From: an uncultured Kiloniellales bacterium
GTDB taxonomy: Bacteria > Pseudomonadota > Alphaproteobacteria > Kiloniellales > JAKSDN01
NCBI GenBank assembly: GCA_947258885.1
Contig: CAMYKD010000004.1
Location: 1-64,000, forward strand
Reading direction: 5' to 3'
Length of the DNA stretch: 64,000 nucleotides
Below are positions 59,844-61,756 of the stretch, piece by piece. The position numbers and the translations under genes were made by a program. The notes below the pieces were generated by a model. The model did not search any database, was not told the origin of the DNA, and saw only the letters and a list, made by a program, of their open reading frames with translations. Position 1 is the stretch's first letter, and each line of letters starts with the position of its first letter.

Positions 59844-61043
59844 CTAGACGCCGCGCACCGCTTGCCCATCCCGGCGGACCAGCAGAAGGTAGGAGGCCAG
59901 GGCCCCCGCCGCGACGGCCGCGGTCGCACCGAACATGCCGCGCGCCGTGCCGTCGTGCAGGTGACCTACGGCGATGCCGACGCAGGCGGCCAGGCCCATT
60001 TGCACCACGCCCAGGAAGGCGGAGGCCGTGCCCGCCATAGTCGGGTAGGGGCCGATCGCACCGGCAATGGCGTTGGGCAGCATCAGGCCCGCGCCGATCA
60101 GGTACAGGAAGGTCGGGGCCACGACCGCGGCGACCCCGAGCACGCCGGACAGCGCCAGGCCCAGCGCCACGATGCCGCCGGCAAGCCCGACCAGGGTGCC
60201 GGTCAGGATTAGGCGGTCCAGGCCCACGGCCAGCGACAGGCGGCCCGAGGCGAAGGTGCCGATCATGTAGCCGACCACGACCGCGCCGAAGCACAGGCCG
60301 TAGCGGTCGGGAGACAGCCCGAGCACATCGATCAGCACGAAGGACGACCCGGAGATGAAGGCGAAGATGCCGCCGTAGGCGAAGGCGCCGACCAGGACGT
60401 AGCCGAGGTAGGCCGGGTCCCTCGCCAGGGTCAGGTAGTTGCGCAGCATCTGTGCCCCGCGGGCCGCGGCGGCATCGCGCGACGGGTTGGTCTCCGGCAG
60501 CAGCAGGAAAACGGCCAGAAGGCAGCCTGCGCCGAAGCCGGCGAGCACCAGGAAGTTGGCGCGCCAGCCGAACCAGACCTGAAGGTATCCGCCGAGAATC
60601 GGCCCCAGCGCGGGCGCGAGCGCCATCGCCATGCTCATGTAAGAGAGCGCCTTGGCCGCCCGCTCGCGGCCGTAGACGTCGCGCACCACGGCCCGGCCGA
60701 GAACGACCCCGGCGCAGGCGCCCAGGGCCTGGAGAAACCGCGCGGCAATCAGGAAGCCGATATCGGGCGCCGCCATGCAGGCGAGGCTGGCGCCGACGTA
60801 AAGCCCGAGGCCCGCGATCAAGACCGGGCGCCGGCCGTAACGGTCGGACAACGGCCCATAGACCACCTGGCTGGCGGCGAATCCCGCCAGGAAGACCGAC
60901 AGGGTCAGCTGGACCTCGGCGGTGTCGCTCGCGAAGGCTCGGGCGATCGCCGGCAGGGACGGCAGGTAGAGGTCGGTCGAGATGGCGCCGAAGGCGACCA
61001 GCGCGGTCAGCAGGAGGGCGACGGCCAGATTATCGGGACGCAC
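59844..61043 (-). CDS. Bcr/CflA-type MFS drug efflux transporter
   Basis: The 399-residue protein has 12 hydrophobic segments and the DHA1 motifs of the Bcr/CflA group: DLYLPSLPAIARAF in helix 1, GPLSDRYGRRPVLIAGLGLYV (motif A) and RFLQALGACAGVVLGRAVVRDV (motif C region). It exports drugs or small metabolites by proton antiport. It converges with the PBP gene (3-base gap) and is divergent from the VOC gene. Confidence 0.93.
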   Translation of the reverse strand: MRPDNLAVALLLTALVAFGAISTDLYLPSLPAIARAFASDTAEVQLTLSVFLAGFAASQVVYGPLSDRYGRRPVLIAGLGLYVGASLACMAAPDIGFLIAARFLQALGACAGVVLGRAVVRDVYGRERAAKALSYMSMAMALAPALGPILGGYLQVWFGWRANFLVLAGFGAGCLLAVFLLLPETNPSRDAAAARGAQMLRNYLTLARDPAYLGYVLVGAFAYGGIFAFISGSSFVLIDVLGLSPDRYGLCFGAVVVGYMIGTFASGRLSLAVGLDRLILTGTLVGLAGGIVALGLALSGVLGVAAVVAPTFLYLIGAGLMLPNAIAGAIGPYPTMAGTASAFLGVVQMGLAACVGIAVGHLHDGTARGMFGATAAVAAGALASYLLLVRRDGQAVRGV

Positions 61044-61133
61044 GATGGACCCCTGCCGCTGTTGGAAAGTGGCCCTTTACGTCCGGCCGCGAAGACCGGT
61101 TATAGTCGGGCCGGAGAACGGCGCCAAGGAGCC

Positions 61134-61165
61134 ATACCAATGGTCGCTGATAATGACTCATTTCA
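61134..61165. repeat. Left terminal inverted repeat
   Basis: This 32-base arm pairs with 61282-61313 in inverted orientation; the single difference is T versus G within GACTCATTTCA. Confidence 0.8.
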
Positions 61166-61281
61166 TGGGAGCGGATCGGGTCGCCCGGGTAGGCGCGGTG
61201 CGCAGCGCGATGCGTGCATCGGGCAAGCGCCGCAACGCCCCCGCGCAGCGCGCGCCTTGCTGGCGGCCAAAATCGCCTCGG

Positions 61282-61313
61282 TGAAATGCGTCATTATCAG
61301 CGACCATTGGTAT
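61282..61313. repeat. Right terminal inverted repeat
   Basis: This 32-base arm is the inverted partner of 61134-61165. It ends five bases before the first possible ATG of the VOC gene. Confidence 0.8.
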
Positions 61314-61345
61314 CAGCCATGAAAAAGCGGTCCGGCGAGCCCTTC

Positions 61346-61756
61346 ATGCCCGCCCCCGACTACGGGCGTTCGTTGCGCGGATTCGGCGTCAACCTGTTGG
61401 TCAGCGATGTCGCCCGCGCCGTCGCCTTCCAGACCGAGGTCCTGGGGGTCGAGCTGGTCTATCAGGACCCGGATTTCGCCGTGCTCGCCCACGGCGGGGC
61501 CCAGTGGATGCTGCACGCCGACCATAGCTATAGCGGCCATCCGCTGCTGGCGCTGACCGGCGACGGCGCGATCCGCGGCGCGGGGGCGGAACTCAGGCTC
61601 TACGGCATCGACCCGGACGCCGCCGAGGCCCGGGCGCGGGCCCGGGGCGATCCGGTGCTGGCCGCCTCGGCGGACAAGCCGCACGGCCTGCGCGAATGCT
61701 TCCTGGCCGATCCGGACGGCTACGTCTGGGTGCCGGGCACCGGGATCTCAGAATAG
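61346..61756 (+). CDS. VOC-family (glyoxalase-like) protein
   Basis: The 136-residue protein has one vicinal-oxygen-chelate fold: GVNLLVSDVARAVAFQTEVLGVELVYQDPDFAVL, then ECFLADPDGYVWVPG at the end. Such proteins bind a metal ion and act on varied substrates or as resistance proteins; the function here is unknown. I prefer ATG 61346 (MPAPDYGRSL). The ATG at 61319 lies five bases from the MITE-like element, and the track start is within that element, so the original promoter/start region may have been changed by the insertion. Confidence 0.78.
   Translation: MPAPDYGRSLRGFGVNLLVSDVARAVAFQTEVLGVELVYQDPDFAVLAHGGAQWMLHADHSYSGHPLLALTGDGAIRGAGAELRLYGIDPDAAEARARARGDPVLAASADKPHGLRECFLADPDGYVWVPGTGISE

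Follow-up and report, generated by a model that had tools for sequence, protein, structure and literature searches.

Bacterial MITEs are usually regarded as what deletion has left of insertion sequences, their interiors carrying no meaning, and REP/BIME repeats are tied to the REP-associated tyrosine transposase and have no target duplication. Correia/NEMIS, ERIC, RUP and RU are bacterial MITEs for which reviews are available (PMC2229807, PMC10969869). The nearest described repeats of the Alphaproteobacteria, here compared by description only, are the Caulobacter CcrM-associated intergenic repeats, CIR, and the Rhizobium-specific intergenic mosaic elements, RIME. As outlined in PMC2229807, CIR (Chen and Shapiro 2003) is ~110 bp long and consists of two arms with a linker, has no terminal inverted repeats and carries GANTC at the hairpin loop. 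RIME (Osteras 1995) are presented in PMC1273637 as intergenic palindromic repeats of Alphaproteobacteria. Among insertion sequences, the IS1031 group of the IS5 family uses a TNA target with an exclusive 3-bp duplication, an example of its ends being GAACCTGTC (PMC12016507). In IStrons, an RNA module is tied to insertion-sequence ends and renders insertions harmless (PMC4227781).

We analysed a 64,000-nucleotide stretch (the window) from the draft genome of an uncultured Kiloniellales bacterium. An earlier note on this DNA had described a MITE-like element at 61134-61313 with 32-bp inverted ends and one mismatch, and these ends are present, the single mismatch falling at base 25. Comparison with other copies set the exact borders of the palindrome at 61135-61312 (TACC...GGTA, 178 bp, + strand). 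The outer A and T of 61134-61313 are part of the flanking 3-bp target copies, CCA at 61132-61134 and TCA at 61313-61315 (both + strand). The long hairpin that the note had foreseen was borne out by the folding energy of the window strand, which was -116.6 kcal/mol compared to -77.6 +/- 4.2 kcal/mol for shuffles (z = -9.3; 0/200 shuffles equally good). The palindrome is therefore genuine and far above chance. As the note had also observed, the element has a GC-rich core without a transposase, and it contains no genes.

The earlier note had anticipated a multi-copy repeat. The draft genome (4.9 Mb, 236 contigs) yielded 83 matching pieces that resolve into ~40 places, many of them cut by contig ends. 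The common full-length form is 262 bp, as in L007:1502-1763, and the terminal repeats measure 23-32 bp. Aligned by BLAST with this full-length copy, the window copy comprises bases 1-109 and 193-262, with ~83 bases gone from the middle. Judging from this alignment, the window copy is an internal-deletion derivative of a ~262-bp element made up of a terminal repeat, a core, an inverted core and a second terminal repeat. On the + strand, the left terminal inverted repeat (TACCAATGGTCGCTGATAATGACTCATTTCA, 61135-61166) comes first. The first core arm (P2) follows with its 5' half, which bears the loop motif GCGCAGCGCGATGC..GCATCGGGCAAG (61171-61243, model R1); the second core arm (P3) contributes its 3' half, joined to P2 by the internal deletion (61244-61280); and the right terminal inverted repeat completes the element (61281-61312). 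The fused remnant still forms one hairpin because its two arms are inverted homologues. The earlier note had overlooked this origin from a two-armed element whose folded core is widely conserved.

Two same-genus sister genomes are empty at the window site, in agreement with the mobility expected earlier. One of them, G002, reads GGAG-TCA-GCC, compared to GGAG-CCA-(178 bp)-TCA-GCC in the window; measured against this empty site and the TNA rule from 20 copies, the right target copy is TCA and the left one, CCA, is mutated from TCA. A second locus likewise has an empty site, with TGA, again a 3-bp target. Among 20 intact copies, the 3-bp flanks were identical in 12, compared to 3.9 after random re-pairing of the flanks. 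TNA was present in 35 of the 40 flanks, and in no copy did the two flanks share a fourth base. The element is thus short and gene-less, has terminal inverted repeats, many copies and a target duplication, and its sites are empty in relatives. Together, these results show that a non-autonomous transposable element (MITE) was inserted here in this genome's lineage, duplicating a 3-bp TNA target, and the insertion is recent. The 3-bp duplication argues against membership of REP/BIME. The element resembles the IS1031 group in its TNA target and 3-bp direct repeat, but it ends in TACC rather than in the GAACCTGTC of the example, and our searches revealed no transposase of this group flanked by TACC ends.

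The same data bear on two other readings of the locus. The earlier note had proposed a TA target duplication and mobilisation by an IS630/Tc1-type transposase. Although TA does stand at each end of the palindrome, it belongs to the end itself; beyond it the copies carry the 3-bp TNA repeats described above, and the target was 3 bp at both empty-site loci. We regard a Tc1/IS630-type MITE as highly improbable. The other reading is a fixed regulatory hairpin or terminator of the intergenic region, which would suit the strong fold and its place in the leader of a glyoxalase-family gene. The orthologous site is, however, empty in both sister genomes, so the element is mobile rather than a fixed regulatory hairpin; it has ~40 copies elsewhere, where a single copy conserved at this locus would have spoken for a fixed hairpin; and no terminator or promoter pattern was found at the window element. 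The terminator role suggested by the note found no backing, as no intrinsic terminator (a GC-rich hairpin followed by a T-run) occurs in 60950-61450. A fixed hairpin or terminator is hardly credible here, although the element may have been domesticated after insertion.

The TNA target often lies at, or a few bases from, the stop codon of an open frame entering the element (L004, L010, L014, L019, L021 and others), and the TNA duplication would preserve the stop of a predicted open frame running into it. Two copies in this genome, L033:482-744 and L035:367-628, have other ends (TACCGAGGAGCG) and are flanked on both sides by CTAG, not TNA.

The terminal repeats and the 3-bp duplication led us to infer mobilisation in trans by a DDE-type insertion-sequence transposase. 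The full insertion sequence with the same ends that the earlier note had suggested looking for did not turn up: this genome and its near relatives yielded none with TACC/TNA ends, although draft assemblies may miss one. The search for a TACC-end partner covered DDE_Tnp_1 loci in this genome and eight relatives, DUF4096 loci in three genomes and an end-pair search of the retrieved loci, and 0 of the DDE_Tnp_1 or DUF4096 loci had TACC ends. One candidate for an autonomous partner, in L151, proved to be a MITE with a lone end nearby. Plasmid and phage collections gave one partial plasmid match and no phage match; a plasmid search with the short ends returned intergenic copies only, and a second element had no match among the plasmids. 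In contrast to the TACC type of the window, another terminal type of core-bearing MITEs, TAGCCCG(C/G)AT(A/T)TCTCAC, does share its ends with insertion sequences, as is asked of a MITE: it is identical to the TAGCCCGGAT(A/T)TCTCAC ends of the IS1380-family elements L201 and L228 (this genome and G001). No core was reported in the IS1380-family element itself. A further terminal type more weakly matches the ends of ~850-bp DDE_Tnp_1 elements (L218, L225).

The inner part of the element is more widespread than its ends, as determined by BLAST against 60 relatives. A motif scan found the core motif in at least 117 stretches of named genomes. Among the matches listed, nearly all named records were from Alphaproteobacteria or unplaced Proteobacteria, and they included Rhodospirillales, Hyphomicrobiales, Rhizobiaceae, Kiloniellales, Inquilinus, Roseibium, Neorhizobium and others. 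Pattern matches in a Planctomycetota MAG and a Saprospiraceae MAG were discarded as chance (~15 bits). R1, a covariance model of one core arm whose E-values are rough, matched 36 of 289 sampled Alphaproteobacteria genomes, and 33 of 219 genera; it also matched in other classes of the phylum (putative Gammaproteobacteria), there with other termini. Core elements are mostly 260-310 bp long and have several unrelated terminal types (TAGAGC.., TACC.., TAGCCCG.., CTAGTGGC..). Together with the compensatory changes and the strand bias given below, these comparisons support the view that the core is a conserved folded module combined with different transposon ends. Two elements depart from the usual plan: in L151:793-1158 the second arm holds a further ~100-bp insertion with inverted repeats inside, and in L245:1501-1652 a segment, CATCCGATGCGGCGG, is tandemly repeated in the core hairpin.

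The element shares with Correia/NEMIS, ERIC, RUP and RU a short, gene-less form with terminal inverted repeats, a target duplication, many intergenic copies and a transcript that can fold into stems. In contrast to these families, the interior rather than the terminus is conserved across genera and classes here, as two inverted folded arms joined to several terminal types. RIME, by description only and as far as PMC1273637 presents them, are likewise intergenic palindromic alphaproteobacterial repeats and are 'mosaic' by name. Searching the literature text for the sequences and for previous accounts returned nothing naming this core family, which may have been described earlier under another name. 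The element is of a known kind, a MITE, and its family, which extends beyond the Alphaproteobacteria to other classes of the phylum, is little described. Its significance lies in the interior: in place of a meaningless remnant of a deleted insertion sequence, the conserved part is a strand-polarised fold found across at least two classes and on several transposon ends, one of them of IS1380 type.

Most complete elements have two R1 matches on opposite strands that abut each other, giving the order terminal repeat, core arm reading inward, core arm reading inward from the other side, terminal repeat. Across classes the hairpin sequence varies, while GCAG..CAAG in the loop and AGGCG..CGCAACGC in the flanks are kept. 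That the core motif is exactly invariant in alignments A1 and A2 comes partly from pattern selection, and independent support is provided by the copies found by BLAST and the matches in other classes. Double compensatory changes were present in 21 of the 30 core pairs. To avoid favouring wobble, we aligned the arms by Watson-Crick pairing alone and then counted GT and AC mismatches on the + strand, with the terminal repeats serving as internal control. In 33 non-redundant elements, the GT:AC counts were 35:9 for P2, 6:33 for P3 and 21:20 for the terminal repeats; in a second class they were 24:9, 7:35 and 33:40, respectively. The p-values for these counts are optimistic, as elements within one genome are related. 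The short inner stem of P2 runs against the G-T trend (GT:AC 2:10), perhaps from counting a conserved mismatch beside the CAA bulge. In each arm, G-T thus exceeds A-C on the strand that reads inward, and it is on that strand that the arm is constrained. The strand bias and the compensation point to single-strand folding, most likely as RNA.

A bias of this kind could also arise in a core under no selection, if perfect palindromes decay and strand-biased mutation together with hairpin template switching yields complementary arms and a G-T/A-C asymmetry. The terminal arms do agree at 22.2/23 bases within a copy compared to 20.0/23 between copies, as expected from arm-to-arm correction. Such correction should, however, erase conserved unpaired loop motifs, yet these persist across classes; the bias is absent from the terminal repeats and reversed between the arms, and the stems differ widely but remain paired. 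An unselected core therefore seems quite unlikely. In 15 of 20 copies the two terminal repeats agreed perfectly over 23 bp, and the 20 intact copies of this genome (G000) had 14 distinct left ends; from this comparison the terminal repeats apparently evolve jointly inside each copy.

Alternatively, the mobile element would be the same but its core would be selected as single-stranded DNA, each arm being extruded on one strand during replication or transposition and recognised by a protein of the host or the transposon, in the way that RAYT enzymes recognise REP hairpins. The strand polarity with inverted arms fits DNA as well as RNA, and DNA hairpins, too, tolerate G-T pairs. On the other hand, the terminal repeats and the 3-bp duplication indicate DDE transposition rather than the REP/RAYT route, and core-less palindromes with the same ends occur. 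We consider a single-stranded DNA core rather unlikely, though less so than an unselected one. The core-less palindromes are ~31 bp long, carry the same TACCAAAGGTC ends and in some cases lie between TAA and TAA (L066, L069, L070, L073, L076, L078); they are apparently minimal elements. As they share the ends, the core would not be needed for mobility, and the notion that the core is required for transposition is weakened.

We therefore favour, as a probable explanation of the whole, a MITE with a conserved, inward-polarised folded core that is mobilised in trans and whose core acts as RNA. The core would act in any transcript entering the element. Because the arms face each other, each reading in from its own end, transcription from either side would first meet a core in the right orientation, no matter which way round the element is inserted. 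The facing arms may thus suit an orientation-independent RNA role in folding out, antitermination or processing. As the likeliest benefit, the host transcript would tolerate the insertion, or the insertion would fold out of it. A broader proposal, that in at least two classes unrelated insertion sequences carry inverted pairs of folded RNA modules on their ends, and that these modules soften insertions independently of orientation in the transcripts that enter them, so that the host tolerates the insertion, is put forward tentatively, and we think it somewhat doubtful. IStrons offer an analogy for how such a core might act; the element has no group I intron, self-splicing is not indicated and there is no Rfam match. 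Rfam 15 gave 0 matches at the gathering threshold in four loci and only below-threshold microRNA/IRES matches in 12 diverse loci, and assignment to a known RNA family was dismissed on this basis. If the fold acts as RNA, it would represent a mobile RNA module that Rfam lacks.

The genes around the insertion are divergent, as noted earlier: an MFS transporter gene (PF07690) lies at 59844-61043 on the - strand and a glyoxalase/VOC-family gene (PF00903) at 61319-61756 on the + strand, both assigned by Pfam, the insertion being in the leader of the latter. The element separates the Shine-Dalgarno sequence AAGGAG (61126-61131, + strand, read directly and by comparison with G002), now upstream of the insertion, from the ATG at 61319, a split that the earlier note had missed. 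In the empty allele of G002, 6 nt separate AAGGAG from the start codon. This start codon is backed by the sister genomes G001 and G002 and by one more distant genus, in which the protein likewise starts MKK and GTGGAGG lies immediately upstream. With the hairpin folded out, the Shine-Dalgarno sequence would return to 9 nt from the start codon, compared to 6 nt in the empty allele, and this might rescue translation of the glyoxalase-family gene. The window copy is a natural test, with a ribosome-binding site split from its start codon and sister genomes that keep the empty site. A GTG-started frame (61214-61756) starts within the element and continues in frame into the glyoxalase-family gene; the element could give this gene an alternative N-terminus.

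The single arm mismatch of the window copy falls on GACTC (61155-61159, + strand), a GANTC (CcrM-type) site absent from the other arm. GANTC was present in one terminal arm in 14 of 21 copies and in both arms in one. In 67 elements of other genomes (L080-L196 among the loci), 26 had it in one arm and none in both. The element thus resembles CIR, as that repeat is outlined in PMC2229807, in being an alphaproteobacterial repeat with two structured arms and a conserved GANTC tied to one arm. By the same outline, and by description only, it differs from CIR in its length of ~262 bp, in having terminal repeats and in carrying GANTC in one terminal arm.
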